A stretch of DNA of 64,000 nucleotides from a virus, in IMG/VR virus record IMGVR_UViG_3300044641_010328, positions 1 to 64,000 of that record; one strand, written 5' to 3'. This document shows positions 3,145 through 46,188 of the stretch, piece by piece (the first letter of the stretch is position 1; each line of letters starts with the position of its first letter). The position numbers were made by a program, and so were the translations under genes. The notes beneath the pieces were generated by a model. The model saw only the letters and a list, made by a program, of their open reading frames with translations, searched no databases and had not been told where the DNA came from.

Positions 3145-3154
3145 TTATTTCTCT

Positions 3155-3626: not shown

Positions 3627-3656
3627 ATTATAACCTAGTGCCTCGCGCTTTACACG
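3627..3656 (-). promoter_or_regulatory. Promoter-like site P1 (CGTGTA-N18-TATAAT)
   Basis: On the minus strand, TATAAT occupies 3632-3627 and CGTGTA lies 18 nt upstream inside TCTCGTGTAAAGC. It lies in the short gap after the 3663-4100 gene and would start transcripts of the tRNA-Arg pair and onward. The 13-nt block TCTCGTGTAAAGC is repeated exactly at the P2 site (5668-5680). Confidence 0.65.
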
Positions 3657-4609: not shown

Positions 4610-4692
4610 TGGCTGCTCGGGTCGGATTCGAACCGACGTTGCACAAGGCACAGATTAACAGTCTGCTGACTAAGCCACTAGTCTACCGAGCA
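4610..4692 (-). tRNA. tRNA-Asn(GTT) with long variable loop
   Basis: Acceptor TGCTCGG/CCGAGCA, encoded CCA, T arm GTCGG/CCGAC and anticodon loop CTGTTAA (anticodon GTT). The variable region, about 12 nt (GCCTTGTGCAAC), is far longer than in usual asparagine tRNAs. The last codons and stop of the endonuclease at 4683 overlap the first 10 nt of this tRNA. Confidence 0.85.
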
Positions 4693-5399
4693 ATAGGTTT
4701 GTTATAGTATTGTAAGTGAAGGTTTTTCGTAAACCAGAAAGGTGTTCTTCCCGTTGATTCAGCATAATCAGACAAAACTTGTTTCTTGACTAGTGAAAGT
4801 TCATTGTATTTACGCCATTTATCATTTAATTTTTTGACAGATGCGAAGCTTTTACATTCAACTATGAAGCATTCATTTTTTGTATTGATTATAAAATCAG
4901 GAATAAATCTTCTTTTTCTACCGTTGTCATCAAACACGATAGATTCTTCACATCTTTTCATTTCAATTGCATTAAATACTGTCTCAAAATAGTTCAAGCA
5001 TGCATATTCTATTTTAGAATCACATCTTATTTCTTGATCTTGAAACTTGTACACGCATTTAATGGAATTAAAATTTGTCTTTCCTTCCATTATTGCTTTT
5101 GTTCTTGCAATTGAAAGTTTCTCTATTGTTTCTGGCCTTGAAACGGCATGTTTGTGCCCACAAGCTTTTGAACAAGTTTTTCTATATGATCTGCTTGGCT
5201 TAACACTAAAGGTCTTTGAACATTCCGGACATACTTTTTCAATAAGGATAGTTTTAGAAGATAAAGTTCTTGAAACTTTTGCATTCGTTTCTTCTCTATT
5301 GGTAAGAGAAGAAAAAGATCTGCTACATTTTGAACTACAAAATCTTCCGCTACCGTAGGTTCCCGTATTTTCAGTTCCACATTTTTCACAAGTTTTCAT
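4683..5399 (-). CDS. Zinc-finger PD-(D/E)xK free-standing endonuclease
   Basis: A 238-residue protein with two Cys-rich fingers at the N terminus (CEKCG...CSSKC at about 4-25; CPECSKTF...CSKAC at about 57-80). A nuclease core lies near residues 165-185 (FIPDFIIN then FIVECKSF), giving Asp, Glu and Lys of the PD-(D/E)xK fold. A Glu earlier in the core (KIEYACL) may complete the site. It is the third endonuclease in the tRNA cluster and is markedly AT-rich. Its stop codon TAG lies inside tRNA-Asn, an intimate fit that suggests selection for insertion without tRNA damage. The target is unknown. Confidence 0.8.
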   Translation of the reverse strand: MKTCEKCGTENTGTYGSGRFCSSKCSRSFSSLTNREETNAKVSRTLSSKTILIEKVCPECSKTFSVKPSRSYRKTCSKACGHKHAVSRPETIEKLSIARTKAIMEGKTNFNSIKCVYKFQDQEIRCDSKIEYACLNYFETVFNAIEMKRCEESIVFDDNGRKRRFIPDFIINTKNECFIVECKSFASVKKLNDKWRKYNELSLVKKQVLSDYAESTGRTPFWFTKNLHLQYYNKPIAR

Positions 5400-5648: not shown

Positions 5649-5677
5649 ATTATACCATGGGAGACAGGCTTTACACG
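5649..5677 (-). promoter_or_regulatory. Promoter-like site P2 (CGTGTA-N17-TATAAT)
   Basis: TATAAT at 5654-5649 and CGTGTA 17 nt upstream, in the gap between the 5692 gene and tRNA-Arg(CCT). It would drive tRNA-Arg, tRNA-Gly and the endonuclease. It carries the same 13-nt TCTCGTGTAAAGC block as P1. Confidence 0.65.
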
Positions 5678-6849: not shown

Positions 6850-7060
6850 GTTGTAGCTTCCTCGTGCTCGTGCTGTGTCTGTTGCATCTGCTGTCCTGCA
6901 CCGTCGCACGGCCATCGTGCACATCAAGGATGAGAACAGTCTCTCCCGATAGGAATCCGGGATCGACAGGACCGTAGATATCGTAGAAGCTGATCATGTC
7001 CTGTGTCAGTCTAGCAAGATCGCCGGCTCGAAAATCAGGCGGCAGGGACCGTGACTTCAT
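6842..7060 (-). CDS. Small SH3-like protein, unknown
   Basis: A 72-residue ORF with AAGGAG eight bases before the ATG. It overlaps the upstream gene's end by 26 nt and the next gene's start by 8 nt, typical of this genome. The pattern FRAGDLARLT...GETVLILDV...RATVQDS resembles small phage beta-barrel (KOW/SH3-like) proteins. Residues near the C terminus are basic. No specific function can be given. The same style of protein occurs at 8718-8921 and 29558-29896. Confidence 0.62.
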   Translation of the reverse strand: MKSRSLPPDFRAGDLARLTQDMISFYDIYGPVDPGFLSGETVLILDVHDGRATVQDSRCNRHSTSTRKLQHA

Positions 7061-7877
7061 AGCCTCGCTCCTTCAGCTGTGACAGCGCAAAATCGACCTC
7101 GACGATGAGTCCGTACTTCTCCCTGGTTGTCTCCTTGAACTTGCCGAGGACCAGCAACAGGTCGTCAGGCCGCGTGAGATTCCGCTCTCGAAGAATCGAC
7201 TGGATGTTGTGTGAGAGGCCCTTCGACTCAATTCGCCTGATGACGCTCTCGTCGAAGTCCTCGCAGAGCGCTCGCATGATCCATTCCGTGATTAGAGGCT
7301 CCGAGCGGGGCGTCACCCCTGCGATCCCACGATGCTTGAAGTACTTCATGATCCGGCTGCCCATGAAGGGTGAGGTGTTGTTCTTCACGTCGAGCCGACG
7401 GTCAGCCTCGATCTCCTTGAACCGGCTGTTGACAAAGACATGGTCGCGGGTGATCCCGACGCAGGCGTTCGTGAAGTCGAACCGCTGCAGCTGCTCCTCC
7501 ATGGGCAGGATTAGCTTCTCGCTGTCAACGAGCTGGATGCGCATGTTCTGGTTGTGAATCTCGAGCGCATTGCCGCCGAAAGAGCGGAAGGTGGACATGA
7601 ACTTGAACCTGTGAGATTCTGCCTTTGAGGGGTCTTCAAAGAAGATGTCAATGTCACCCGCAGGGGCCCTGCCAAGTGGTCCACGGTCACCCTTCAGGTA
7701 AGCGCCGATCGCGTCACCACGCATCAGGGAGCGTCCAAACCCGCCAGCGATGTAGCATCCATCGTCTAGAAGGGTGGAGACCAGACCTGGATCAATTAGA
7801 ATCCGCTGTAGCAGGGCGCGCTCGGGATGTGCGTCGATGACGTCATTGAGGTTGAGCCGCTCGTATTGGTCGTTCAC
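7035..7877 (-). CDS. Nucleotidyltransferase-fold protein
   Basis: A 280-residue protein. Near residues 40-80 it has YIAGGFGRSL followed by GDIDIFF, the Gly-Gly/Ser and Asp-x-Asp pattern of the polymerase-beta-like nucleotidyltransferase fold. The remainder is helical, with no second domain recognised. The start is a GTG at 7877 with TAGGAGGCATA before it. An ATG seven codons earlier would lie at the -10 of promoter P6, so the GTG is preferred. Family members adenylate or otherwise nucleotidylate RNA, proteins or small molecules. The substrate is unknown, and some phage members may be inactive toxin-antitoxin-like relatives. Confidence 0.75.
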   Translation of the reverse strand: MNDQYERLNLNDVIDAHPERALLQRILIDPGLVSTLLDDGCYIAGGFGRSLMRGDAIGAYLKGDRGPLGRAPAGDIDIFFEDPSKAESHRFKFMSTFRSFGGNALEIHNQNMRIQLVDSEKLILPMEEQLQRFDFTNACVGITRDHVFVNSRFKEIEADRRLDVKNNTSPFMGSRIMKYFKHRGIAGVTPRSEPLITEWIMRALCEDFDESVIRRIESKGLSHNIQSILRERNLTRPDDLLLVLGKFKETTREKYGLIVEVDFALSQLKERGYEVTVPAA

Positions 7878-7893
7878 TATGCCTCCTACGATC

Positions 7894-7922
7894 ATCATAC
7901 CACTGTGGCGATCGATCGCACG
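7894..7922 (-). promoter_or_regulatory. Promoter-like site P6 (CGTGCG-N17-TATGAT)
   Basis: TATGAT at 7899-7894 and CGTGCG exactly 17 nt upstream. It places a start site a few bases before the ribosome site of the GTG-initiated gene at 7877. It matches the other sites except one base in the -10 hexamer. Confidence 0.55.
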
Positions 7923-11147: not shown

Positions 11148-11651
11148 CTAATCGCAGTTTTGCCCCAAAATGTAGGCTTGCCAGCGTCCAACAATGCCAA
11201 AGATCTTCTCAAGGTCTGACTTAAAGACGAGGAGATCGTCGAGATCAGCCGGAAGGGAATGATCAGTTAGCAGGCGCAAAGATTCAACAGTTGTGTCAAA
11301 CGGGTAGACAGCCTCCATCATGCTGCGGTATGAGAACTCACAGGTGAGTCCGAGTTTCGCAAGATCAGCGCTGTACTCGTTGGCTGTGCTTAGCGCGGGG
11401 CCCCCCATCATTCCGACGCAGCTATCTAGCCACTTGTCAGTTAGCTCTCTGATTCCCCGATAGGCGCTGTCCTTGATTGGCAGGATCATGCAATCCTTCT
11501 GGAATTGCATGCATGCGTGACCTCCTGCCTGATGCTCGATGAGGCGCCAGGCAGTAGGGTCTCGAAACGATCCATACGGGCTATTCGTCGTCAGGACAAG
11601 AATCGGGAGCTTGAGGTCCTCAGACCAAGTTGCGATGCGCTCGATTTGCAC
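11148..11651 (-). CDS. Hypothetical protein
   Basis: A 167-residue soluble protein without recognised motifs, apart from three cysteines in the first half (HACMQF, KDCMI, DSCVGM). The start overlaps the phosphoesterase gene by 32 nt. It is globular in composition with mixed helices. No function is assigned. Confidence 0.62.
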   Translation of the reverse strand: MQIERIATWSEDLKLPILVLTTNSPYGSFRDPTAWRLIEHQAGGHACMQFQKDCMILPIKDSAYRGIRELTDKWLDSCVGMMGGPALSTANEYSADLAKLGLTCEFSYRSMMEAVYPFDTTVESLRLLTDHSLPADLDDLLVFKSDLEKIFGIVGRWQAYILGQNCD

Positions 11652-12153
11652 TCTTTACCTCCTCAAGATCTACTAGACGGTAGAATCGATCCCAGGCGAC
11701 GTTGAAGTGCCCTGGGATGGTCCGGTCTCGGCTGTGGATGTGACCATGAACAACGATGTCAGGTGACATCTGCTCAAAGACTCGAACAGACTCCGGATTC
11801 ATCGATGTGGCAGGCTTGTGGATGAAGAGCATCCCGTCCTCAAAGGTCCAATCAGCGACAGACTCGAATCCTGCGCAGATGTACCACATGTCAGCCTGAT
11901 GGTCGTGATTTCCTCGAATTAGGGTCTTTCTCCCCGGAAGATCACCAATGATCTTCTGTAGCGCCTCCTTCCGGGGCCCCAGTCCAGCAGACAGGTCGCC
12001 GACCACGATGACGCGATCGTCTGATGCAACGACCTCGTTCCAGGCGCTGATGATCTTCTGATTCATCTGGTCGACCGTCTCGTGCGGGCGTCCGCAGTAG
12101 GCGATGATGTTTTCGTGGAACAGGTGCAGGTCAGATGTAATCCACGTCCTCAC
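11620..12153 (-). CDS. Calcineurin-like metallophosphoesterase
   Basis: A 177-residue protein with all motifs of the family: SDLHLFH (Asp-x-His), VVGDLS (Gly-Asp), IRGNHDHQ (Gly-Asn-His-Asp) and HGHIHS. It starts with GTG behind TAGGAGAGAAAC, about 10 nt downstream of promoter P3's -10. Members hydrolyse phosphoesters in nucleotides, nucleic acids or proteins. Small phage versions resemble E. coli YfcE-type phosphodiesterases. The substrate is not predictable here. Confidence 0.9.
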   Translation of the reverse strand: MRTWITSDLHLFHENIIAYCGRPHETVDQMNQKIISAWNEVVASDDRVIVVGDLSAGLGPRKEALQKIIGDLPGRKTLIRGNHDHQADMWYICAGFESVADWTFEDGMLFIHKPATSMNPESVRVFEQMSPDIVVHGHIHSRDRTIPGHFNVAWDRFYRLVDLEEVKSANRAHRNLV

Positions 12154-12169: not shown

Positions 12170-12198
12170 ATTATACCATAGTGCGCGAAGTTTACACG
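12170..12198 (-). promoter_or_regulatory. Promoter-like site P3 (CGTGTA-N17-TATAAT)
   Basis: TATAAT at 12175-12170 with CGTGTA 17 nt upstream, within CGCGTGTAAAC. The -35 box overlaps the stop codon of the small ORF at 12192. It would start the phosphoesterase transcript, leaving a short leader before its TAGGAGAG. Confidence 0.65.
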
Positions 12199-15016: not shown

Positions 15017-17530
15017 CTAGTTGTAGCCACCAGCCGCGACGGTCGCGCGGCGGAAGGTGTTGTTGATCACGGTGTTGAGGTCCTTCGAGAGGTAGAGCGG
15101 CGTGCCGAGCGGATTCGTGTCGGAGACGATGTACGACGTGATCGCGTACTTGATCGGATTTCCACCAGGTCCCGCCTCACCCATGCGCATCGCCTGCTCG
15201 GGCGTGATGATGTTGATGTCTTCGGGCAGGCTCGCTCTTGGGATGGGCGTCGGATCGTAGCTTGCATCAATGACGCTGAATCCTCCCGGGCCGTATGTCA
15301 CCATGTTCTTGTCCGACCGCCAGCGGATGGACTGGACCGGAAGGAATCCGACGTTGGCGCCCGGGCCTGGAGCCGCTAGCTGCTGCCTGCTCAGAGAGTA
15401 GTCAACGACCCAGTGTGCAGCCTGCTCACTTAGCATCCGCCGCGACTCGGAGATCACCTGCGAGCCGAGCGGGCTGCGGAGGCGAACGGGGACGAGGATG
15501 TACTCGAAGCTCGGATTTGCGACGCGAAGCTCGAAGTCATCACCTCCACCGACTGGAACCCGCTTCTGCAGGATCGCAGGAGTCCTCCGGACAGCCGGCG
15601 ATCCGTCCTTCTTGATGTAGACGTTGTCGAGCTCAAAACCGGGTGAGGTGCCTGCAACTGTCCGGCCCGGGCGCGAGGTGATGTTTGTGACCTCTCGCGC
15701 AAGATCAGCAGCGCTCGGGCCTGCTGCAGGGGCTGGCTTGGGAACGATCGCCTTGAAGTCGATGATGGGAGTCGCGTAGGACAGCGTCGTGACCAGGACG
15801 TAAGCCTCATCTTCGATCTGCAGGATGAACCTGACCTGCTGACCCATCATCTTCAGGAGGCTCTTTGCGTCATCGCCAGAGACATCAGGCGTGATGCTGA
15901 AGCCCTTGATGGTGGCTGGATCGTTAGCGCCATTGCCGATGCACACGACCAAGCCCTTCGGGTAGTCGCGACTGAGCGCCTTGAGCTTGATGAGATTGGG
16001 AGTTGACGGAGCGCTTCCAGCAGGAACGGGACCGGTCTCAGAGCCGCCGAGCTCGATGAAGATCTTGGCTGTCCGGGGGATCATGTCATTGTTCGGGCCC
16101 AGGATGGTCAGGAACGGGAAGGGCGAGGCAGCGCCGGAAAAGAGCAGCTCCTGCCAGAGAGGATCGTCGGAGAAGAAGGTGCCGCCCGATCGAATCTCAA
16201 CCTGCGCAGCAGCTGCCTCAACTTCGTTGTATTTCGGTCCTGCAGAGGCTGCATAGGTGAAGCGGAGGAACCGGATGAGGCCCTGGTCGCCTGCCGGAAA
16301 CTTGTCACCGGCGCCGGACCAGCTGGGCCTTGTGGCGCCCTTCAGGCCACTGAGCTTGTTGATCTTGTTAGGATAATCTTCAAAGAAGAGATTGGCCTTA
16401 CCTGTAGCTTTTGCCTCGATCGTCTCGATGAGAGCTGTCAGAGCAGCAGCTGCACTTGGTCCGAACGTGTTGCCCTGCTTGATCGCGTCGCCGAGTGCAT
16501 TATTGGGCTTCGCTTTTGTGCCTAGATTCCTTGCATATTTTTCATAATAAAGATCGACGTTATTCGCGAGGAAGAGGAGAAGGGGATCGTCGGCTGGCGC
16601 CGGAGCGGAGGCGGCTGGCGTGGGCGCATTGCTGTCGGGTGTAGTTGTGTCGATGACTGCTCTAGCTGTATCACTGACAGCACCTGTGACAGCAGACGCC
16701 GCTGCAACGACGGCGCTAGGCTGTGCAGGCTCTACACCGACGACGTTGAACATCGTGAGGAGGTAGTCTGCAAAGCCATCGACGCCCGCGGGGGCGGTCT
16801 GATTAGTAGCGCTAGCGAAGTCTGTGCCAGCAACGTTAAGATATCCTTTTAAGACTGCTGAGATTGTGACATCAGGCTTCTCAAGTTCTGCTATGAGTGT
16901 ATCCCAATCAGACTCTTTGAAGGCTTTATTGATCAGATCTTGCTCATCTACATCATTCAAGCCCAGCTTGGACTTGAACCAATTCTTGAGACGTTCAGAT
17001 CCGCTTGTCTTGCTCGCAGCGATCTTTTCCTTCAATTTTTTGCACAGCATGACAAGAATAGCCAGCGTGATGGGGCTTGGGTCTTTCTCGCCAGAAATGT
17101 TGCTAATGTCCTCCAGAGCGGTCGTCTCTTCGACCTGAGATCCAGAATACGTGTGCTGCCTATTCTCTGTTCCTGCTATACCTGCAGGTGTCGCTAGCGC
17201 AACCATCGTGTCGTTCAGCTTTTTGAACAAATTATCGTCGCCGCGCTTGTGCGCGAAAACGGTTGTGGTGGCTCCGCCCGGAGCAGAAGATTTCTTTGCA
17301 GAAGAACCATTCGCGGCGCCCAACTCAGCTTTTGTTTTAAGGATCACATTTGAAGCATCACCATATGCATATCTTTTTGGTTGACCTGCCGGTGTCTCAT
17401 CTCCTGCCTCATAGCGGCTGAGTGTGGTGACGCCCACATTTATGCTGGTTGGCGGTGACCAGTCCGCCTCATTTAGCAGCACTCGGCGCACGGCTTCTCG
17501 GATCCGCTCCTCTTCAGGCAATCTTTTCAT
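15017..17530 (-). CDS. Large putative virion protein, capsid-targeting-like N terminus
   Basis: An 837-residue protein. Residues 1-21 are a charged amphipathic helix (RIREAVRRVLLNE) ending LNE before Ala22, like a cleavable capsid-targeting tag. Ala/Pro/Thr-rich linkers (about 265-310) separate a helical N part from a beta-rich C part rich in Gly and Pro. No enzymatic motif was recognised. The GC-rich, Ala-rich composition differs from the AT-rich endonucleases. It lies 2 nt after the 755-residue gene, so both are made from one message. Inferred role: packaged or injected protein, or a large structural component. Confidence 0.68.
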   Translation of the reverse strand: MKRLPEEERIREAVRRVLLNEADWSPPTSINVGVTTLSRYEAGDETPAGQPKRYAYGDASNVILKTKAELGAANGSSAKKSSAPGGATTTVFAHKRGDDNLFKKLNDTMVALATPAGIAGTENRQHTYSGSQVEETTALEDISNISGEKDPSPITLAILVMLCKKLKEKIAASKTSGSERLKNWFKSKLGLNDVDEQDLINKAFKESDWDTLIAELEKPDVTISAVLKGYLNVAGTDFASATNQTAPAGVDGFADYLLTMFNVVGVEPAQPSAVVAAASAVTGAVSDTARAVIDTTTPDSNAPTPAASAPAPADDPLLLFLANNVDLYYEKYARNLGTKAKPNNALGDAIKQGNTFGPSAAAALTALIETIEAKATGKANLFFEDYPNKINKLSGLKGATRPSWSGAGDKFPAGDQGLIRFLRFTYAASAGPKYNEVEAAAAQVEIRSGGTFFSDDPLWQELLFSGAASPFPFLTILGPNNDMIPRTAKIFIELGGSETGPVPAGSAPSTPNLIKLKALSRDYPKGLVVCIGNGANDPATIKGFSITPDVSGDDAKSLLKMMGQQVRFILQIEDEAYVLVTTLSYATPIIDFKAIVPKPAPAAGPSAADLAREVTNITSRPGRTVAGTSPGFELDNVYIKKDGSPAVRRTPAILQKRVPVGGGDDFELRVANPSFEYILVPVRLRSPLGSQVISESRRMLSEQAAHWVVDYSLSRQQLAAPGPGANVGFLPVQSIRWRSDKNMVTYGPGGFSVIDASYDPTPIPRASLPEDINIITPEQAMRMGEAGPGGNPIKYAITSYIVSDTNPLGTPLYLSKDLNTVINNTFRRATVAAGGYN

Positions 17531-23566: not shown

Positions 23567-23596
23567 AAGAAAGGCCCCTCATCTGTCTGAGGGGCC
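23567..23596 (-). terminator. Intrinsic terminator of the transcription cassette
   Basis: GGCCCCTCA and TGAGGGGCC form a 9-bp stem with a 6-nt loop, followed on the minus strand by TTTCTTG. It sits 7 nt after the stop of the GreA-like gene and closes the unit that starts at promoter P4. Confidence 0.85.
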
Positions 23597-23602
23597 CATT
23601 TT

Positions 23603-24067
23603 TCAAGTGGTGATCTGAATGATCTCGTACTGCGTGGTGCCCCTGGGGATGACCAGATCGACCACGTCGCCTGGTACTGCACCAAGCAGCGATTCGCCCA
23701 GTGGCGATGTAATGCTGACGCATCCGATACTAATGTCAGCCTCCGGCTCACCAACCAGCGTCACCCAGCGCTGCTTCTCAGAGCTGCAATCCTCGATTAG
23801 AACCTTGCTGCCAAATCCCACGCGATCTGTGGGCGGAGGCTCATCATTGATCTCATAGTTCTCAAGGACTTCAGCCAGCTCAGAGATTCGCCGCTCCACC
23901 ATCCTGCACTGCTCCTGTGCATGCAGGTATGATTCATTCTCCTCGAGTCGGCCTTCCTCGCGAGCGCTAACGACCTCAGCTTGCGCTGCCATCAGGTCTC
24001 GCGTCTGCATCTTTAGCAGGCGCTCCTGCAGGCGAGTCGCTCCAGCCGGTGTGAGCAGGTTGTGCAT
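23603..24067 (-). CDS. greA: GreA-like transcript cleavage factor with altered tip
   Basis: A 154-residue protein, the same length as bacterial GreA. An N-terminal coiled coil (about 1-75) carries SAREEGRLEENESY at the tip. A C-terminal FKBP-like domain has FGSKVLIED, VGEPEADISIG, SITSPLG and GDVVDLVIPRG. In E. coli GreA the tip reads GDLKEN, with Asp41 and Glu44 holding the catalytic Mg in RNA polymerase. Here Asp41 is Arg and Lys43 is Glu. It would bind the polymerase secondary channel, but cleavage may be changed or lost, as in Gfh1-type inhibitors. It shares an operon with a sigma factor. Confidence 0.88.
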   Translation of the reverse strand: MHNLLTPAGATRLQERLLKMQTRDLMAAQAEVVSAREEGRLEENESYLHAQEQCRMVERRISELAEVLENYEINDEPPPTDRVGFGSKVLIEDCSSEKQRWVTLVGEPEADISIGCVSITSPLGESLLGAVPGDVVDLVIPRGTTQYEIIQITT

Positions 24068-24279
24068 TACTTCTCCAGAACCTCAAGGATGTTATCGAGC
24101 TCTGTGTTGTCGACATTCTCGCGCAGCTTACAGATTCGAAGCGCTGCCTTGAATGCCTTCAGGTCTAGCTTGTCCTTGTAATCCTCGAGGATCTCCTTTC
24201 GATCCTCCTGCAGAAGCTTGATCTCATTATCGATCTGGGTAATCTTCTCAACTAGCTCGCGAACGGTCTCAGAAGTCAT
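24067..24279 (-). CDS. GapR-like DNA-binding small protein (DUF2312-like)
   Basis: A 70-residue helical protein started at 24279, eight bases after AAGGAG. KITQIDNEIKLLQEDRKEI and a second helix LKAFKAALRICKLRE follow the pattern of GapR/DUF2312 proteins, which form tetramers around overtwisted DNA ahead of polymerases (family knowledge). The match is by pattern only. The stop overlaps the GreA-like ATG as TAATG. A role in DNA topology during phage transcription is inference. Confidence 0.7.
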   Translation of the reverse strand: MTSETVRELVEKITQIDNEIKLLQEDRKEILEDYKDKLDLKAFKAALRICKLRENVDNTELDNILEVLEK

Positions 24280-24301
24280 TAACATATCTCCTTAGGGTTG
24301 A

Positions 24302-24532
24302 TCAACTATATTCTTCGTTCTCGTCCTTTACAATGAACTCTTGCCAGATGTTTCCTTCCTCGTCCTCGTACTCACCAAGGGTAACATCAGGATCTTCCTG
24401 GATGATAGCCTTTGTCTGCTCCAGAGTGTACATCATGTCCATAAAGTCCTCAATATCGACGACAATCATGGTTCGATCAAACTTGAGATAGACCTGCTTT
24501 GTCTCTGGGTTGTATGCGCACTCATCCATCAT
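24302..24532 (-). CDS. Small acidic hypothetical protein
   Basis: A 76-residue protein, strongly acidic (DEEGNIWQEF, DENEEYS), with four or five Met near residues 20-30 (DFMDMMYTL). The start is ATG at 24532 behind CGGGAGAC, followed at once by a second ATG. Upstream in-frame codons would require a TTG start. The composition suits a protein that binds a basic partner. It lies between the helix-turn-helix and GapR-like genes in the transcription cassette. Not recognised. Confidence 0.68.
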   Translation of the reverse strand: MMDECAYNPETKQVYLKFDRTMIVVDIEDFMDMMYTLEQTKAIIQEDPDVTLGEYEDEEGNIWQEFIVKDENEEYS

Positions 24533-24553
24533 GTCTCCCGTGTGTGGATACAA

Positions 24554-24850
24554 CTAACTATTGCGAGACTTCGATCGCTCCAGCAGGAGGTCGTAGACAC
24601 CGGACTGGAATCGAGGATCAGACGCGATACGACGCAGATCATCATTGGTTGCGCTCACACCGTAAGCCTCGCAGACGCCAGTTGCGACCTTGTCAAGCGC
24701 CGAGACGAGCACATTGCGTGCGGTGGATAGATTCATCTTGTGACCGTCTTCAGTCATCTTCTCAGCGATATCCTTGTATCCAAGGCCTCCGCTGAACTCC
24801 GTGAAAACCGAGTAACCGTGCTGCGACTTGTGTCCCTTGGGCTTTGCCAT
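24554..24850 (-). CDS. Helix-turn-helix protein, possible detached sigma region 4.2
   Basis: A 98-residue protein. A basic N terminus ([12 protein letters not shown]) precedes GYKDIAEKM...NLSTARNVLVSALDKVA at about residues 25-58. That arrangement resembles the recognition helix pair of sigma region 4.2 (compare 'LEEVGRRF..SRERVRQI..ALRRLR'). Its ATG overlaps the stop of the sigma gene (TGATG), and its ribosome site GGAGGTGAG lies in the last sigma codons, so the two are made together. Bipartite sigma factors (Bacillus SigO/RsoA; T4 gp55/gp33) provide a precedent. An independent DNA-binding regulator is the alternative. Confidence 0.72.
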   Translation of the reverse strand: MAKPKGHKSQHGYSVFTEFSGGLGYKDIAEKMTEDGHKMNLSTARNVLVSALDKVATGVCEAYGVSATNDDLRRIASDPRFQSGVYDLLLERSKSRNS

Positions 24851-25593
24851 CACTCACCTCCAACGAAAAGACGATTCTCAAACTTGCTATCATCCTGCAC
24901 ATCAGCGACGCCGAACCGCAGGCGTAGCACCTGCTCCTCTCGAGAGGTCAGTCGGTCGAGGCACTTGCTGATCGCCTGCATCACCTTCTGCCGATCAATC
25001 GCATCATCAGGAGGGGCAGCCTCCTCATCCGCGATCGTCTCGATCACCTTCTTGCCGTCGGCGTCGCCAATCATCTGGTCGAGCGAGACTGTGGAGCGGA
25101 CGCTGCTGCTGCTAAGCACATCCTTGACGGTGTCCACCGAGATGCACATCATCGCTGCGATCTCCTCGTGAGAGGGTCGAGTTCCGAACTTCGCATCGTA
25201 CTCCTCGACGAAGACCGAGATGTGCCAGGCGAGAGCCGTCATGTGCGCAGGAACCCGGATGTCGGAGGCGGTGTCGGTCACGTGGCGGCGGACAGCCTGC
25301 TTGATCCACCAGGATGCATAGGTCGAGAACTTGAATCCGCGGCGCCAGTCGAATCGGTCCACTGCCTTGATGAGTCCGATGTTGGACTCCTGGATCAGGT
25401 CCTCGAGGCTGCAGCCAGAGCGCTGGTGGCGCTTTGCGATCGAGACAGCGAGCCGAAGATTTGCCTCAATCATCTGGTCTCGAGCGCGCTTGTCACCGGC
25501 CTCGATCCGCTGTGAGAGAGTCACCTCCTCCTCGCGGGTTAGAAGACGGCCCTTGGAAAGATGGTTGAAGTAGGAATTCATTGAGTCAGCCAC
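24850..25593 (-). CDS. Sigma-70-family factor lacking region 4.2
   Basis: A 247-residue protein started at GTG 25593 behind AAGGAGACAAC, 20 nt from promoter P4's -10. Region 1.2 is at about 8-35 ([17 protein letters not shown]). Region 2 is at about 40-100 with [19 protein letters not shown] and [13 protein letters not shown], the melting and -10 recognition helices. Regions 3.0 to 3.2 follow ([24 protein letters not shown]). The protein ends just after region 4.1 ([15 protein letters not shown]) in a short non-sigma tail, so the -35-reading helix-turn-helix is missing. It should redirect host RNA polymerase. Full-length group 1/2 factors have about 30 more residues here. Confidence 0.92.
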
Positions 25594-25612
25594 GTTGTCT
25601 CCTTGTATAAAG

Positions 25613-25641
25613 ATTATAACACAGGTCTCGATACACGCACG
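25613..25641 (-). promoter_or_regulatory. Promoter-like site P4 (CGTGCG-N17-TATAAT)
   Basis: TATAAT at 25618-25613 with CGTGCG 17 nt upstream. It starts the sigma/HTH/acidic/GapR-like/GreA-like operon, which ends at the terminator 23567-23596. It lies within the 80-nt gap after the Hsp20 gene. Confidence 0.65.
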
Positions 25642-25673: not shown

Positions 25674-26048
25674 TTAGCGAAGCTCGATCTTTCGAACTGT
25701 ATCGCGTGTGCTCTGGTTGTAGGGGATCTTGACGCTCAAGATACCTGCATCATAGGATGCATCAACTGCTTCAGTGTTCGCATTCTTTGGTAGCGACCAA
25801 GTTCGACTATAACTGGCAAGCGAGATTTGCTGAGTTGAGTACTCATATTCCTCACGCTTCTCTTCAGCCCGCTTTGCCTTGACGGTCAGCCTGCCGCCGT
25901 TGACCTCGACATCAATGTCAGATCGAGAGAATCCAGGCAGTGAAACCTGCAGCAGGATCTCCTTGCCATTGTGGCCGACGTTAATTGGTGCGTCGGTCTC
26001 GTTTCGATTTGTGAAGAAGATATCAAAAGGATCGTTCCAAAAAGTCAT
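25674..26048 (-). CDS. Hsp20/alpha-crystallin small heat-shock protein
   Basis: A 124-residue protein started at 26048 with GGAGGCAAC before it. The alpha-crystallin domain covers about residues 25-115: [27 protein letters not shown], and [13 protein letters not shown], the A-x-x-x-x-G-x-L signature. The N terminus is short ([12 protein letters not shown]). Hsp20 proteins hold unfolding proteins. T4-like cyanophages carry a similar gene, where it may assist scaffold or tail assembly. GroEL is encoded about 900 nt downstream in sequence terms. Confidence 0.9.
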
Positions 26049-26072
26049 GTTGCCTCCAAGTGTTCCCAAGAT

Positions 26073-26922: not shown

Positions 26923-28527
26923 CTATGTATTCGGCTGTCCAGCATCGTCCTCGACGATTGAGCATCCCGCGGTAAGCATCATTCCTGCAGCTGAGGCTGC
27001 ATTTCGAAGCGCGCAGCGCACAACTCGAGCCGGATCGATGATTCCCATCTCAAGCATGTCTCCGTACTGCTCAGCATAGGCGTTATATCCGAGACGATCG
27101 CTGCCTTCTAGCACACGTGCCAGGACAATATCAGGGACGCCTCCGCTATTCGCAACGATCTGACGAAGAGGCATGCAGCAAGCGGTCCTGACAACATGCC
27201 GCCCAGCTGCCTCGGATCCCGTCAGGCTTCCGGATGAGAGCTTGACAGAGGCTCGAGATAGAGCGACGCCGCCGCCGGGGACGATGCCCTCTTTCAGGGC
27301 TGCCTGAGTTGCATGTAGCGCGTCGTCAACTCGATCTCGGCGCTCCCTTAGCTCTGCCTCAGTCGCACCGCCGACTCGGAGGACAGCAACACCGCCAGAA
27401 AGGAGAGCAAGCCTGCGCCGGCAGTGCTCGCGCTCATCAAGATCCGATGTCTCCTCAGCACGAGACCTGATCTCTGCCACCCTGTCTGCAAAAGTCTCAG
27501 TGTTGCCCTTTGCACCGACAAGTATCGTTTCGCCCTTGCTGATTGTGGCGCGTGTGCAAGATCCCAGGGAATCAAGCGAAACGCTGCCGAGCGACTGGAT
27601 ATCAGCGCTGTGGAAGACTGATGTGCCAAGCAGGCTTGCAAGGTCCTGCGCAAAATCATATCTGCTCTCACCCAGGCCGGGCAGCCTGATCGCGCAGACA
27701 TTGAGGATGCCCTTCAGCTTGTTGACAACGAGGCCCTGGAGTGCCTCTCCGTCGACATCCTCACAAATGAGAAGCAGCGCTCGCTTGGCAGCGAGGATCC
27801 GCTCGAGGAAAGGTGCAAGATCTCGCAAGGTATCAAGGCGCGCATTTAGGACGAGAACAACAGGCTTGTCAAGCTCGCACACCATCTTGTCCTGATTGGT
27901 GACAAAGTAGGGCGACAGGTAGCCTCTGTCAAGGCGTGCACCGGAGACCACACTGAGAGAGCTGTTGAATCCCTTTGCCTCCTCGACTGTGACAACACCG
28001 TCCTGCCCAACAGTCTCAATCGCGGATGCAATCAGTTGCCCAAGATCCGACTCGCCGTTCGCGGAAACTGTGGCAACCCTGAGCAGATCGTCCTTGCCGT
28101 TGACAGGAGAGGAGAGCCTGCTGACCTCCTCGAGCGCAATCTCAACAGCAGCATCGATCCCCTTCTTCAGGTCAGATGCAGAGTATCCTGCTGCAAGCAT
28201 CTTGAGACCCTCAGCATAGATCGCCTGCGTGAGGACTGTTGCTGTCGTTGTGCCGTCACCCGCCTCCTCAGCAGTGCGAGAGGCGGCCTCCTTGATCATC
28301 TGCGCACCAAGGTTCGCAACCTTGTCAGACAGGTTGATCGCGCGCGCGACAGTGACTCCGTCCTTTGTTAGAATCGGATGCTGTCCTTTCTGCTCAATGA
28401 TGACATTTCTGCCACGCGGGCCCATCGTCACCTTGACTGCATCAGCAAGGACGTTGACGCCCTTCAGCAACCTGTCTCGAGTATCAGCATCGAAAATTAC
28501 GAGCTTGTCTGTCTCTTCGCCGATCAT
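26923..28527 (-). CDS. groL: GroEL-type chaperonin
   Basis: A 534-residue Hsp60 homologue. The equatorial motifs VTMGPRGRNVIIEQ, TKDGVTVARAI and EEAGDGTTTATVL carry the conserved Asp residues for ATP hydrolysis. C-terminal GIVPGGGVAL and AASAAGMMLTA are typical. The usual Gly-Gly-Met tail is replaced by an acidic VEDDAGQPNT. The apical domain is diverged and has several Cys. Phage GroEL proteins (for example in EL) can work without GroES. No GroES gene is seen here. Likely function: folding of phage structural or replication proteins. The ATG overlaps the preceding gene as ATGA. Confidence 0.93.
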   Translation of the reverse strand: MIGEETDKLVIFDADTRDRLLKGVNVLADAVKVTMGPRGRNVIIEQKGQHPILTKDGVTVARAINLSDKVANLGAQMIKEAASRTAEEAGDGTTTATVLTQAIYAEGLKMLAAGYSASDLKKGIDAAVEIALEEVSRLSSPVNGKDDLLRVATVSANGESDLGQLIASAIETVGQDGVVTVEEAKGFNSSLSVVSGARLDRGYLSPYFVTNQDKMVCELDKPVVLVLNARLDTLRDLAPFLERILAAKRALLLICEDVDGEALQGLVVNKLKGILNVCAIRLPGLGESRYDFAQDLASLLGTSVFHSADIQSLGSVSLDSLGSCTRATISKGETILVGAKGNTETFADRVAEIRSRAEETSDLDEREHCRRRLALLSGGVAVLRVGGATEAELRERRDRVDDALHATQAALKEGIVPGGGVALSRASVKLSSGSLTGSEAAGRHVVRTACCMPLRQIVANSGGVPDIVLARVLEGSDRLGYNAYAEQYGDMLEMGIIDPARVVRCALRNAASAAGMMLTAGCSIVEDDAGQPNT

Positions 28528-29557: not shown

Positions 29558-29896
29558 CTATTCTACACCATCTTGGTCGTCTCGCACGGGATCGCGCGAG
29601 GCCGCTTCCTCATTGAGGGCGCGTGACATGCGAGACGCCTTCTCGATCATCGTGTCGATCGTCTTGATCGCGTTTTCAATCATGTGCGTCCGAATATCCT
29701 GAACTGTCGTGAACACAGAAGCGTCGATGTCTGATAGGCTCACAGTGTTCCGGTCCTTTGTGGGAAGCGCAACCTTGTAGCTCACTTCCTCAGATCCTAC
29801 TCTCTTCCTAACGATCTCCTCCTCAACGCGAGCAGGAAAAATCTTCATCTCATTGTTGCTCAAGAGGTAGATAATCTGTCCAACTTCATATTTCAT
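29558..29896 (-). CDS. Hypothetical protein, RBS inside terminator hairpin
   Basis: A 112-residue protein (MKYEVGQIIYLLSNNEMKIFPARVEEEIV...) with an SH3-like beta start and a helical C-terminal half (HMIENAIKTIDTMIEKASRM). I have a sense of it as conserved in large T4-like marine phages, but the function is unknown. Its ribosome site GGAG is the 3' arm of the terminator hairpin at 29897-29934, spaced by seven Ts from the ATG. Read-through transcripts would therefore be poorly translated. Confidence 0.68.
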   Translation of the reverse strand: MKYEVGQIIYLLSNNEMKIFPARVEEEIVRKRVGSEEVSYKVALPTKDRNTVSLSDIDASVFTTVQDIRTHMIENAIKTIDTMIEKASRMSRALNEEAASRDPVRDDQDGVE

Positions 29897-33422: not shown

Positions 33423-33772
33423 TGTGCCATCACCACGAAGAGTGCGTCATCAAAGATGTTGTCACAGATCCTCGCAATGTCAAGATCAAGCTGCGTAATG
33501 TCTTCAAGAAAGCTTGTGCGTGTCTCAACGATGACCACGTTTGATTCAATCCCGATCTTGATTGCGTGATTTCTAGTGTCAACGTCCTTTAAGACCTCAG
33601 ATACAAAGTACCTCTGTTGACCAGGATCGTTAAATCTGTAGGCTCTTGCAAGTCGCCTCGGATTCTGAAGCTGTGCCCATTCTGATTTATCAATTTTTAC
33701 TGGCAAATCAGGCGCGTCAATAGAGTCTTGAACTGATCCTCTTAGCGACTCATTTAGAAAGTAGAAGCTCAT
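33419..33772 (-). CDS. Pterin-dehydratase-fold-like protein
   Basis: A 117-residue protein. Residues 25-110 read like 4a-hydroxytetrahydrobiopterin dehydratase: WAQLQNPRRLARAYRFND, then a helix, then TRNHAIKIGIESNVVIVETRT, then ITQLDLDIARICDNIF. The enzyme's His-His-Pro catalytic stretch is reduced to one His (NHAIKI), so activity is doubtful. The family also serves as a protein-binding module. The start (SFYFLNESLRG) has LNE before Ser9, a possible targeting tag. Confidence 0.55.
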   Translation of the reverse strand: MSFYFLNESLRGSVQDSIDAPDLPVKIDKSEWAQLQNPRRLARAYRFNDPGQQRYFVSEVLKDVDTRNHAIKIGIESNVVIVETRTSFLEDITQLDLDIARICDNIFDDALFVVMAQ

Positions 33773-36144
33773 TATGCCTCTGGTTGAGATTCTATCATGT
33801 CATATGCAAACTTGATAATTTCGTTGACATTTTTCTTAGTGGATGTTGCTGCCTTTACCTTCTTTCCCTTAGCATCCAGAGACTTCTTGAATGCCTCTGA
33901 CATCGTCTCAAACTGAGCTTCCATTTCTAGTAAGAAGGCTTCTATGTTTTCATTAATTGCTGTCTCAACCTCGGGAGTTTCCATCTCGTCCTTTCTCGCG
34001 CGAGCTGCCAGGATCTTCTCTCCGACAATGTCGAATATTTCTTCTGGGTTTATAGAGCTAAATTTATCAAACGTGAGCTTCTCGCCTTTTTCAAGCTTAC
34101 CCTGGGAAACAAGCGCCTTCTGAATGACTCCTCCGTACTTGCTTATCACATCAATGGATTCCTCATCGATGTAATTCAGTATCAGACGCTTTATCTGAGA
34201 AGGCGAGAGATCTCTCCTCCTAGCCATGATGTTATACTTTGTAGTGAGCTCAACAGTCCTAATTAGAGCGCGAAGCTGCTCATCAGACTCTTTTGTGAAA
34301 AGATACCTGACAGTTGATATCTCATCAAGCCCTAGCGTCTCGTATCTCTTCTCGTCAGCGCTGGTAAGATCTGGCTTTGTTACAAGGTTGAAGAGCTGTG
34401 CGATGTTAGGGACGACCTCGTTGATATCATCACCTGTGTCAGGGCTAGTGATAAGATTCTGGCAGGCTCTGACAATTAAGGATATCCATTCTTTCATTTC
34501 GACCAAGGACAAAAATTTCTTGTAATCTTCCAGTCCCATTGTCTGGTATGTCTCTTCAAAATCTGCCTCGGGATCATCTTCAACAACTCTCTGGAAAACA
34601 AGTTTCGCAATAGGAGTGAAAGCATTGTTGAAGAAGCTTTCAGCAAGAATCTCAGCAGCAGCGCCTGCGAAAGTCTTCGTCACGATCTCGCCTTCTTCAG
34701 TGCCCTCTATGTCCTCGAGATCTGGATCAAGGATGGAAGGCCTACCTCTTGCCATCAACCCAATCTTCTGATATCTGTCTCGCTCTATGTTCTTGGAGAT
34801 CTGATTGATGGTTTCTTCTTGCTCATCTTTTGACATGCTGTTGAAGTCTGATGTGCTCTTTCCAAGCTTCTTTAGCTGCTTCTCGAATGCCGAAGGATCT
34901 TCGCTTTGCATTGCTTCTGCTTCTGCACGAGAAAACTGACTACCTAGATTAGCCTGAAGGGTCGCTGCTCTCTTCTTCTTGTCTTGAGCCTTCTCAGCAG
35001 CAGCATCGAGCTTTCTCTGCTCCTTTTCACCCCTCGCTGTCAAAGCTGCCAAGGCCTTGTCGTGCATGGCGCGGCGTGCTTTGTCAAATTCTGACCGAAA
35101 CGCTGCTTCGTATTCCTGGTCATTAAATGGGAAATTTCTGAGAATATAGTAAACAGTATCCTCTGTGCGACCACCTGGATATTCAGCTGTGACAGCAATT
35201 GGGCCACCCGTGTGAACAATTGGTATCCTGAGCTCCTTCGCTAGATCCGGTCTTGGCGGGCTTGCGAGATCTGTGAATCTGACTCTCCTAACATGTGTTG
35301 GCTCATCCATGCCATCAAGCTTTGCCATCAATGACTCTATATCAATTCCGATCTTTGCATCTTCAAAATTCTTAGGAAGTCCTAGCCCGGACTTCTCAAA
35401 AACATCAAGAACTCTATTTGCATCTCCTGACACGATGTCTGCCATCTCGATCTTTGACTGATCTCTGATTTGACGCATTGCAATCAGATCAGGTGCCATT
35501 GTCCACTTTTGACGCATCGCTTCAAGCTCATCGATCTCGTGAGACTTCAGCCTCTTCCCGCCGATTGAGACAATTGGTGACGAAGCAGCAGTCGCGCGCG
35601 CTGCTGTTTGTGCAAGCTTCTCTGCTTTTCTTTCGTCGCCCTTCTTCTTCGATCTTGGCTTTTTTGGACCCTCGTATCTATCTTTTGTTGGGCCAGAACG
35701 AAACCCAGTATCGGGCTTCTCATCAGAGTCAGAGTCTTCCTCGTCTCCAGCCGGTATAAGGCTTCTTAGGCTTGCCTCTTTGAGCACAATCGGTCTAAGA
35801 ACTTCCATGAGATCTGTCTCACTCATGCCCTTGTATTGTTCGGGGGCCTTTGATTTGCGCACAAGGTCCTTAATTCGAGAATAGAAGTACTGGACCTTTC
35901 CAGGATCAACCTCCTGTGACATCTGTGCTGCTGCCTGAGAGAGCTGCCGCTTGTTTACCGGTAGAAAGTCAGGATCACCTACGGGAACCTTGTCAGCTGA
36001 TAGCTGAGAAGCCATCTGCGCATCTGGTAGCACAGGCCTATCAGTCCCGGCAATCTGTGTCTGGTCTCTGGTGTGAAAGCTTCTTTCTTCTGCCAGGACT
36101 TTTAGGAGCTGCTCAAGTGCTCGCTTCTTGACTACAACCTGCAT
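33772..36144 (-). CDS. Large coiled-coil putative internal virion protein
   Basis: A 790-residue protein. Residues 1-19 (VVKKRALEQLLKVLAE) carry the shared targeting-like tag ending LAE before Glu20. A basic disordered part (about 135-185) and long Glu/Lys coiled coils (about 355-470) follow, then an all-helical C terminus. No enzyme motif was recognised. The start codon and ribosome region lie in a hairpin with an ATATTTA box in its 5' arm (36140-36175), implying late expression. Size and composition are like phage internal or scaffold-associated proteins. No homologue was recognised. Confidence 0.68.
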   Translation of the reverse strand: MQVVVKKRALEQLLKVLAEERSFHTRDQTQIAGTDRPVLPDAQMASQLSADKVPVGDPDFLPVNKRQLSQAAAQMSQEVDPGKVQYFYSRIKDLVRKSKAPEQYKGMSETDLMEVLRPIVLKEASLRSLIPAGDEEDSDSDEKPDTGFRSGPTKDRYEGPKKPRSKKKGDERKAEKLAQTAARATAASSPIVSIGGKRLKSHEIDELEAMRQKWTMAPDLIAMRQIRDQSKIEMADIVSGDANRVLDVFEKSGLGLPKNFEDAKIGIDIESLMAKLDGMDEPTHVRRVRFTDLASPPRPDLAKELRIPIVHTGGPIAVTAEYPGGRTEDTVYYILRNFPFNDQEYEAAFRSEFDKARRAMHDKALAALTARGEKEQRKLDAAAEKAQDKKKRAATLQANLGSQFSRAEAEAMQSEDPSAFEKQLKKLGKSTSDFNSMSKDEQEETINQISKNIERDRYQKIGLMARGRPSILDPDLEDIEGTEEGEIVTKTFAGAAAEILAESFFNNAFTPIAKLVFQRVVEDDPEADFEETYQTMGLEDYKKFLSLVEMKEWISLIVRACQNLITSPDTGDDINEVVPNIAQLFNLVTKPDLTSADEKRYETLGLDEISTVRYLFTKESDEQLRALIRTVELTTKYNIMARRRDLSPSQIKRLILNYIDEESIDVISKYGGVIQKALVSQGKLEKGEKLTFDKFSSINPEEIFDIVGEKILAARARKDEMETPEVETAINENIEAFLLEMEAQFETMSEAFKKSLDAKGKKVKAATSTKKNVNEIIKFAYDMIESQPEA

Positions 36145-36766: not shown

Positions 36767-37315
36767 TTATCCGCCGGCAGTCTTGACTCCTGCGCCTACA
36801 GAGATTGGAACATCGACCATGCGATCCTCTCCCTCAAGTCCAAAATCGTACTGCTGATCAAGGATATCGACCATCTGTTCAACGTAACTCTGCCCATAAT
36901 TTTTCTTCAAAAACTCTGAGGCTCTTGATACAACGACCTCTTCGACCTGCAGAAGCGTTCTTGAATTCATCACAAGTCTTGCAATCTTTTTGGTGAACAT
37001 GTCGATGTCTAGAGGAGGCTTCTCAACCACAGGCTCCTTTGGTGCTTCCTTTGGAGTCTCGCTTCCTGTTGCCGGAGGTGCGCTCTCTTCACCTGCACCC
37101 TCTTCATCCTGCTCAAGGAGGAATCGAAGAGACAGATTGTTGAGAGACTCAAACATCTCTTCTTTTTCTTCTCCCGCATCAATTGATTCCTTCTCGTACC
37201 TGATTATGAGGGCATCTATCTGATCATCAACAGAGTCGGGTGCAGGATCAACCTCCTGCATCATTCCTTCGACTGGTGAGTCAAGATCATCCTGCTCATG
37301 TATGCGACTTCTCAT
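36767..37315 (-). CDS. Acidic putative virion/scaffold protein
   Basis: A 182-residue protein. The N half is very acidic (DDLDSPVEGMMQEVDPAPDS), then a Pro/Glu linker (about 85-105), then a helical C half (IARLVMNSRTLLQVEEVVV) and a Gly/Val tail. Its ATG overlaps the SOD-like gene stop. It sits among packaged-type proteins. No family was recognised. Confidence 0.63.
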   Translation of the reverse strand: MRSRIHEQDDLDSPVEGMMQEVDPAPDSVDDQIDALIIRYEKESIDAGEEKEEMFESLNNLSLRFLLEQDEEGAGEESAPPATGSETPKEAPKEPVVEKPPLDIDMFTKKIARLVMNSRTLLQVEEVVVSRASEFLKKNYGQSYVEQMVDILDQQYDFGLEGEDRMVDVPISVGAGVKTAGG

Positions 37316-38010
37316 GGTGCTGTCCCCTTGAGAGCAAGTGCGATCTTCTCAGCTCTCTTTATTCTGTCCTCGATGACGCCCCAGTTGAGCTCCTTCATCA
37401 TGGCATAAGTGTATGTCTTAACATCTGAGACATAATCCCTGTAATAGGCGTGTTGCCAGACATCCATGACAATGATGGGAATACAACCAACCGGAACACT
37501 TTGGCTGTGCAGATCGATGAAAGTGTTCATGTAGGTCTGCGTAAAGATGTTGAAATATGTGACTGCCCAACCGCAGCGTGCCGCAAGGCAGCATGCAATA
37601 AAATCAGTCTGCCACTTATCAAAGTCTCCAAAATCACGAGATAGCCTCATGTAGGAGAGCGTGTCCATGGAGATGTTGCTGGTAAGATCGCTGATGTTTG
37701 AGAAGTAAAGCTCGTGTAGGTAGACGCCATTCATGTTGTACGTCTCATCCTGCTTGAGAGATCTGAAAGCAGATCCGTTTGATTTGACATCTCCTCTATC
37801 GACTGTATCAAGCTCTGCGCTTATTCGATTGAAGGCCTCAAGATATCCCAGATATAGACCATTATGTGCCTTTTTTGTGGCAGCGCTCTGGAACTCTGTT
37901 GGCAGATTAAATGTCTTCTGCTGTGCAACCAGCGCCTCGTTGAGATTTTCCCTCTCTCCGAGGTGAAGAGACTCTGCAATAACCTTGCTAATATCTGCGT
38001 TTTTGATCAT
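37312..38010 (-). CDS. Fe/Mn superoxide-dismutase-like protein
   Basis: A 232-residue protein. The fold markers are KAHNGLYLGY (helix 1 His), GVYLHELYFSN (second His), DKWQTDFIAC and DVWQHAYYRDY (Asp and His), so the four metal ligands His, His, Asp and His are present. A typical enzyme has DxWEHAYY; here Glu is Gln. Unusually it starts IKNADISKVIAE with IAE before Ser14, like a capsid-targeting tag of T4. If packaged, it could protect or be injected. It lies in the block of putative virion genes. Superoxide activity is likely but not certain. Confidence 0.78.
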   Translation of the reverse strand: MIKNADISKVIAESLHLGERENLNEALVAQQKTFNLPTEFQSAATKKAHNGLYLGYLEAFNRISAELDTVDRGDVKSNGSAFRSLKQDETYNMNGVYLHELYFSNISDLTSNISMDTLSYMRLSRDFGDFDKWQTDFIACCLAARCGWAVTYFNIFTQTYMNTFIDLHSQSVPVGCIPIIVMDVWQHAYYRDYVSDVKTYTYAMMKELNWGVIEDRIKRAEKIALALKGTAP

Positions 38011-45638: not shown

Positions 45639-46139
45639 CTAGTTGTCGAAAGCTATGACCATTCGGATCTTGTCAGATAGATCCTGGTCTCCGACAATTT
45701 CTGCAAGGGTGCCTGTCCAGGCCATCTCCTTGCAATTATTGTCGGGACCCGGCAGAAGGATCCGAGACACTTCCATCTGTGGAACAGGAATCGTCTCGTG
45801 GTAGTTATCAGCAGCCCAGAGATCATCTGGATTTGTCTCCTCGCCATCTTCTTTTCTGTAGGAAAGAAAGAGATCACGATTTGCCTGCCTAACTTCTGAA
45901 GGTGTTAGCCAGGTGTGGCTGTGAAGATCGCGGCCCCAGACATCAACGAGCTGCCTCCAGGCATTTGAGCAATCAGCCGGCACACCTCGTTCTGCAGTTT
46001 CTAGATTTCCAGCTGGATGCCTGACACCTGCAATGATTCCGAACCAGCTATAGCTTCTTGAGTCATTGATGTGCTCAAAGGCAATCCAGGGTCCGTCTGA
46101 TGTCTTGAATTCCCAGAATCCGTGAATATCGCAACCCAC
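45639..46139 (-). CDS. Conserved phage protein (MGCDIH family)
   Basis: A 166-residue protein starting MGCDIHGFWEF, a family I know from many large phages and some bacteria, of unknown function. Conserved His and Trp (LHSHTWLTPSE) suggest metal binding. It starts at a GTG behind AGGAGATGCACT, immediately downstream of promoter P5. Soluble. Confidence 0.82.
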   Translation of the reverse strand: MGCDIHGFWEFKTSDGPWIAFEHINDSRSYSWFGIIAGVRHPAGNLETAERGVPADCSNAWRQLVDVWGRDLHSHTWLTPSEVRQANRDLFLSYRKEDGEETNPDDLWAADNYHETIPVPQMEVSRILLPGPDNNCKEMAWTGTLAEIVGDQDLSDKIRMVIAFDN

Positions 46140-46159: not shown

Positions 46160-46188
46160 ATTATAACACAAGCTCGGCCCGTCGCACG
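46160..46188 (-). promoter_or_regulatory. Promoter-like site P5 (CGTGCG-N17-TATAAT)
   Basis: TATAAT at 46165-46160 with CGTGCG 17 nt upstream, inside TCTCGTGCGAC. Leads into the MGCDIH gene and, by read-through, dnaE. Confidence 0.65.

Follow-up and report, generated by a model that had tools for sequence, protein, structure and literature searches.

The locus analysed here raises the question of how a phage sigma-70 factor whose chain stops just after region 4.1 could serve at promoters, and whether the small helix-turn-helix (HTH) protein encoded directly behind it supplies the missing region 4.2. The window, i.e., the whole stretch of DNA that was analysed, comprises 64 kb out of a 90,978-base IMG/VR virus record with genes for UvsX, a T4-type single-strand binding protein, a tail sheath and a bacterial-type DNA polymerase; judging from these genes, its source is a myovirus-like phage. 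The IMG/VR phage records with which it was compared are fragments. The locus lies on the minus strand, in the order promoter, sigma, HTH protein, acidic protein, GapR-like protein, GreA-like factor and terminator:

25636-25641, minus strand: -35 element CGTGCG of the promoter of the sigma-HTH operon
25613-25618, minus strand: -10 element TATAAT of this promoter, 17 bp after the -35 element
24850-25590, minus strand: truncated sigma-70 factor (regions 1.2, 2, 3 and 4.1; SigA/RpoD-class profile match)
24554-24850, minus strand: HTH protein, putative detached region 4.2 subunit and proposed -35 reader
24302-24538, minus strand: small acidic protein (no match in Pfam or PHROG)
24067-24285, minus strand: GapR-like DNA-binding protein (PF10073, 23.6 bits against a cut-off of 22.6)
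23603-24067, minus strand: GreA/GreB-like elongation factor (PF01272, 5e-22; PF03449, 2e-13)
23572-23597, minus strand: intrinsic terminator-like hairpin (10 pairs and a T-rich tail)

The gene order, the overlaps, the truncation of sigma and the terminator are all found in the window as the original prediction had described them, and the promoter-like element that it had placed before sigma (P4) indeed consists of CGTGCG, a 17-bp spacer and TATAAT. The sigma gene starts with a GTG at 25590, downstream of AAGGAG, ends with the TGA at 24852-24850 and encodes about 246 aa. It is the only sigma-70 factor of the window, and its chain ends just after region 4.1, about 18-19 residues past the ..LRLRFGV motif. 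Pfam profiles matched region 1.2 (1.5e-9), region 2 (2e-21) and region 3 (4e-10), and the Sigma70_r4 match covers only positions 1-18 of the 50 positions of that profile. Likewise, the match of regions 1.2-4.1 to SigA/RpoD (E 8e-79) ends at region 4.1. A region 4.2 HTH is absent from this chain, and no in-frame continuation into region 4.2 was found behind the stop codon. The residues associated with melting and the -10 element (F88, S89, T90, Y91, A92, W94, W95, I96 and Q98) are invariant among 48 sequences. Among 18 large relatives, every one encodes a single sigma region-2 protein, namely the truncated sigma, and a small second sigma (phrog_1190) was not present in any of the 15 records searched.

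The HTH gene extends from an ATG at 24850 to 24554 and encodes 98 aa. Its ATG overlaps the sigma stop, as had been predicted, by sharing the A of the TGA at 24850, and its Shine-Dalgarno sequence is formed by GGA GGT GAG, the final codons of sigma. The family alignment has a mean column identity of 47%, with Arg45, Lys54, Phe81 and Gln82 being invariant, and displays an intact helix-turn-helix with a conserved recognition helix. In addition, the proteins have a C-terminal extension of about 35 residues that includes a conserved DPRFQ motif and is absent from sigma region 4.2. Profile searches, including Pfam and PHROG, yielded no clear family match, so that no unrelated family laid claim to the protein; PF08281 was touched by only five of 56 members (best E 0.02). 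A sequence search against the PDB returned nothing useful, and no homologue was found in 50,697 phage records. When aligned by hhalign, TARNVLVSALDKVATG of the HTH protein fell onto RIRQIEAKALRKLRHP of region 4.2, which is the expected register at a non-significant P of 0.07. In sigma-70, R584, E585 and Q589 are the residues reading TTGACA and are conserved -35 contacts (PMC8407463, PMC4943231), retained across bacterial primary sigmas (PMC8407463). They are not kept in the HTH family, where their equivalents in the hhalign register are H/L, S/A and N. As the recognition helix of the HTH protein differs from that of sigma-70, a holoenzyme containing it should read a different -35 element.

The truncation and the pairing are not peculiar to the window. 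Searching viral contigs with sigma gave 75 loci, comprising 69 with a truncated sigma, five with a full-length sigma and one locus that is cut off. An HTH gene lies downstream of sigma in all 69 truncated-sigma loci and in none of the five with a complete region 4.2. In 64 of the 69 the two genes adjoin directly, at spacings of -23 to +38 nt, and in the other five they are separated by one inserted small gene. The reverse search from the HTH alignment led to 81 loci, 80 of them viral and one on a contig from a bacterial bin, and a truncated sigma lies just upstream of the HTH gene in all of them; the two locus sets overlap and some of the contigs are near-copies. Tails after RFG are short in loci found from sigma and measure 5-33 aa in those found from the HTH protein. 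Because frames and spacings vary, the locus encodes two proteins and a programmed frameshift can be ruled out. The same holds for an assembly or sequencing error, as the arrangement is found in 69 loci with many spacings and frames; these loci include 55 distinct HTH sequences, which also argues against chance. In a tree of the sigmas, one branch parts the split from the complete ones (support 83/91), a topology compatible with one origin of the split. The bacterial-bin contig (L159) comes from the bin of an uncultured bacterium and carries a very divergent truncated sigma-HTH pair beside a putative intein-bearing terminase; it probably represents a related phage that ended up in a bacterial bin.

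Structure prediction points in the same direction. The HTH protein alone was modelled with a pLDDT of 82; this model had no fold match in the PDB and a single one in BFVD (probability 1.0), namely A0A6J7X3V2, an uncharacterised protein of an uncultured phage. Twelve loci encode the HTH in the reading frame of sigma, after TAA codons; region 4.1 plus HTH was folded with AlphaFold2 as a natural in-frame read-through of this kind, using an alignment that also included 21 HTH-only rows (pTM 0.66). The eight best PDB matches of the composite model in Foldseek are all sigma region 4, among them 7kug, 7kuf, 8d5v, 3t72, 6onu and 3hug, with probabilities of 0.85-0.99, TM-scores by target of 0.51-0.75 and weak E-values of 0.16-1, for a read-through chain that forces region 4.1 and the HTH close together. 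The 36 residues of region 4.1 alone cannot account for the coverage of targets of 65-97 residues. Region 4.1 and the HTH protein together are thus predicted by the model to make up a complete sigma-4 fold.

In many loci the sigma gene is preceded by CGTGC[GA] and, about 17 bp further on, TATAAT, and the window's record contains seven promoters of this class, mostly before non-structural genes and sigma itself. Besides the one before sigma these are:

29560-29588, minus strand: CGTGCG-N17-TAGAAT before the exonuclease gene of an exonuclease-GroEL block
46160-46188, minus strand: CGTGCG-N17-TATAAT before ORF 45639-46139
12170-12198, minus strand: CGTGTA-N17-TATAAT before ORF 11620-12153
7894-7922, minus strand: CGTGCG-N17-TATGAT before ORF 7035-7898
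5649-5677, minus strand: CGTGTA-N17-TATAAT upstream of ORF 4683-5399
3627-3655, minus strand: CGTGTAA-N17-TATAAT promoter

For an unbiased count, TATAAT-like hexamers were taken as anchor in 53 sequence sets from phages, 975 kb in total, and the hexamers 17-20 nt upstream were counted. The leading -35 hexamer was GTGTAA (53 vs 6.8 expected, in 37 sets), followed by GTGCAA (44 vs 8.3 expected, in 31 sets), with CGTGTA and CGTGCA also among the leading ones. The spacing of GTGYAA has a sharp peak, with 72 sites at 17 bp and 18 sites at 18 bp, over a background of about four. TTGACA before TATAAT-like -10 elements exhibited neither a spacing peak nor enrichment in the same 53 sets, and GTGYAA had no spacing peak in the control DNA (298 kb, with bacterial chromosome and other phages among it). 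Of 122 GTGYAA sites, 74 are intergenic with a gene start no more than 150 nt away; among the -10-like sites as a whole, counted in three genomes, 134 of 1,711 are so placed. Many of the family's promoters also bear an extended -10 TG, TGNTATAAT. A TTGTAA promoter class in the clade of the window was considered as well and dropped, as its sites were mostly homologous coding positions. For the divergent pairs L062, L064, L065 and L068 the sites were too few to compare the -35 element with the HTH variants.

A strict scan for the promoter pattern in 2.9 million IMG/VR viral contigs yielded 53 stretches. The contigs concerned included 17 that were already known as split-sigma contigs and four more that proved to be so. 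The same -35 peak was found in L195, L207/L220, L218 and L221, which contain no sigma and are probably fragments of split-sigma phages covering their early region; their kinase-like gene forms one family, 68-76% identical to that of the split-sigma phages where aligned. These contigs (L195, L207, L220, L218 and L221; records G019, G027, G034 and G035) are dense in CGTGYAA, with up to 15 sites in 37 kb, many of the promoters preceding small ORFs, and a PrkA-like kinase is common to them and the split-sigma phages. Several of the remaining contigs have proteins in common with the split-sigma family, and the stretches on L222 and L236 look like chance. As far as the scanned contigs indicate, the CGTGYAA promoter is confined mainly to the split-sigma family, the exceptions being a few chance-like hits and some contigs that are too short to be placed.

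The mechanism we propose is a sigma made of two subunits, with the division falling in the middle of domain 4. Binding of core RNA polymerase, reading of the -10 element and DNA melting would be the task of the larger subunit (regions 1.2 to 3.2), which would also keep the first helices of domain 4, i.e., region 4.1. The small HTH subunit, produced from the overlapping or abutting gene, would dock on region 4.1, complete the sigma-4 fold and provide the recognition helix, and the resulting holoenzyme would read CGTGYAA as -35 element 17 bp before an ordinary TATAAT. With promoters before the sigma gene and mostly non-structural genes, this could amount to a self-reinforcing switch of the host polymerase to phage genes, a regulatory role that we infer. 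We have considerable confidence in the split as such, that is, in a sigma divided through domain 4 with the HTH protein as its region 4.2. That this detached region 4.2 both completes domain 4 and reads CGTGYAA is in our view probable, and for the recognition of CGTGYAA by the sigma-HTH pair, taken on its own, the balance tilts in favour. The original proposal that the HTH protein replaces the missing DNA-reading part is accordingly strongly supported by the two-way pairing, the modelled sigma-4 fold and the changed -35 element, while the physical docking, the contact with the beta flap and the reading of DNA are what we infer from these.

The promoter class could also be read by the host polymerase or by another activator. 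The main rival is that the host's own sigma reads CGTGYAA at early promoters and that the split sigma serves another, late class. This would fit the position of the sites, mostly before non-structural genes and the sigma gene itself, as early phage genes usually need the host sigma, and the strong extended -10 at many sites would assist it. It would also agree with the outcome of an EM motif search for a separate class of structural-gene promoters, which gave only weak, unconfirmed candidates. Against it stands that bacterial primary sigmas conserve the residues that determine TTGACA (R584, E585 and Q589; PMC8407463), and that the promoter is restricted to the split-sigma family among the 2.9 million contigs, apart from the few chance-like or unplaceable short hits. 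We regard this explanation as unlikely, albeit the one to be taken most seriously.

At least eight of the 18 large relatives encode, away from the sigma-HTH pair, a stand-alone region 4.2 mini-protein of 74-122 aa, which combines a Cys-rich N-terminus (CF..C..C..WI..NC) with a canonical TLQEIGDIFGVTRMRICQIEK helix-turn-helix. It is found, for example, on the reverse strand of L170 at about 2920-3145 (G001:C1:17374-17478), and also in L171-L177, L280 and L281; it had no match in the 50,697 phage records. This mini-protein could be the true sigma partner at some promoters. A modular sigma, whose body (regions 1.2 to 4.1) is completed either by the HTH protein for CGTGYAA or by the Cys-rich mini-protein, giving two promoter programmes, is a tentative idea that we hold to be improbable. 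A further region 4.2-like stretch, TLADIAKEMGVSTSGVKRLEAEAIKKM, lies inside ORFs of 335-352 aa in L178 and L179, and the protein containing it resembles a structural or maturation protein of phages.

A more doubtful explanation is that the HTH protein sits on the flap or region 4.1 as a co-activator that does not read DNA, with sigma using an extended -10 alone. T4 gp55/gp33 works in this way, gp33 binding the flap tip as a sigma-4 mimic (PMC2988020), and an extended -10 TG is present in many promoters of the family. However, late promoters of the gp33 type have no -35 element, whereas a sharp, conserved element lies exactly at -35 here; in the HTH protein the helix-turn-helix is intact, with its recognition helix conserved and one Arg invariant, and the T4-like late promoter TATAAATA is not enriched in these phages. 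It is very unlikely that the HTH protein is an unrelated, co-transcribed regulator, such as a repressor or a MotA-like activator, next to a sigma that needs no region 4.2: although its sequence similarity to region 4.2 is weak and the roughly 35 extra residues with DPRFQ are foreign to that region, its two-way association with the truncation is perfect in 69 and 81 loci, its gene is missing from all five full-length sigma loci, and sigma-4-specific structure matches appear only for the combined model. Finally, the five genes that one promoter and one terminator enclose in the window, originally called a self-contained transcription-takeover cassette, can hardly be one functional unit, as only sigma and HTH stay together across the 75 loci, where the acidic (24 loci), GapR-like (16) and GreA-like (11) genes sit at changing distances; the conserved unit is the sigma-HTH pair.

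Other neighbours of the pair were observed as well. A GroEL-like chaperonin (26923-28527) is encoded just upstream of the sigma operon in the window and is present in 64 of the 75 loci, and an Hsp20-like gene (25674-26069) adjoins sigma in the window and in a minority of relatives. An N-terminal basic/amphipathic motif resembling (R)xLRxxIREELL recurs in many otherwise unrelated phage ORFs, for example at 15017-17530, 33772-36144 and 37312-38010 in the window, and in relatives too.

The putative two-subunit sigma shares features with several known systems. T4 gp55 is not known to have a SigA-like body, unlike the phage sigma described here. In the T4 MotA/AsiA system a phage protein replaces the -35 reading of region 4 and the -10 element stays TATAAT; MotA reads a -30 box and AsiA remodels the host sigma, whereas the present phages bring their own sigma already without region 4.2, and the element lies at -35 with a 17-bp spacing. 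In SPO1, late transcription is directed jointly by gp33 and gp34, whose small phage genes lie side by side and overlap; the HTH protein has no detectable homology to any record of the phage collection. SPO1 gp34 is an essential late sigma (PMC9429907). The T4 gp55/gp33 pair has been called a 'split sigma' in a review, with gp33 not recognising DNA sequence (PMC2988020). It likewise combines a phage sigma lacking a DNA-reading domain 4 with a small second protein, but the promoters served by gp33 have no -35 element, in contrast to the conserved CGTGYAA at -35 and the HTH protein as its presumed reader here. In Bacillus subtilis SigO-RsoA, a two-subunit sigma from adjacent genes, sigma-4 (SigO) and sigma-2 (RsoA) are separate (PMC8103513). 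The adjacent genes for two subunits are common to both, whereas the cut lies inside domain 4 here and regions 1.2 to 4.1 remain on one chain. Compared with the primary sigmas SigA/RpoD (group 1/2), regions 1.2, 2, 3 and 4.1 match, but regions 1.1 and 4.2 are absent and the associated -35 element is CGTGYAA, not TTGACA. Split sigmas as such are already known from T4 gp55/gp33 and SigO/RsoA; a cut inside domain 4 combined with a DNA-reading partner appears to be new as far as the open-access literature shows, in which no description of the sigma-HTH pair was found.

If the proposed mechanism is true, domain 4 of sigma can be divided into a structural region 4.1 and a DNA-reading region 4.2 and still work, and the -35 reader would be a separate, replaceable subunit. 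A family of large, uncultured phages would thereby gain a predicted promoter code, CGTGYAA-N17-TATAAT, that is testable with standard laboratory polymerase, and the pair may serve as a natural template for transcription parts that are modular and orthogonal.
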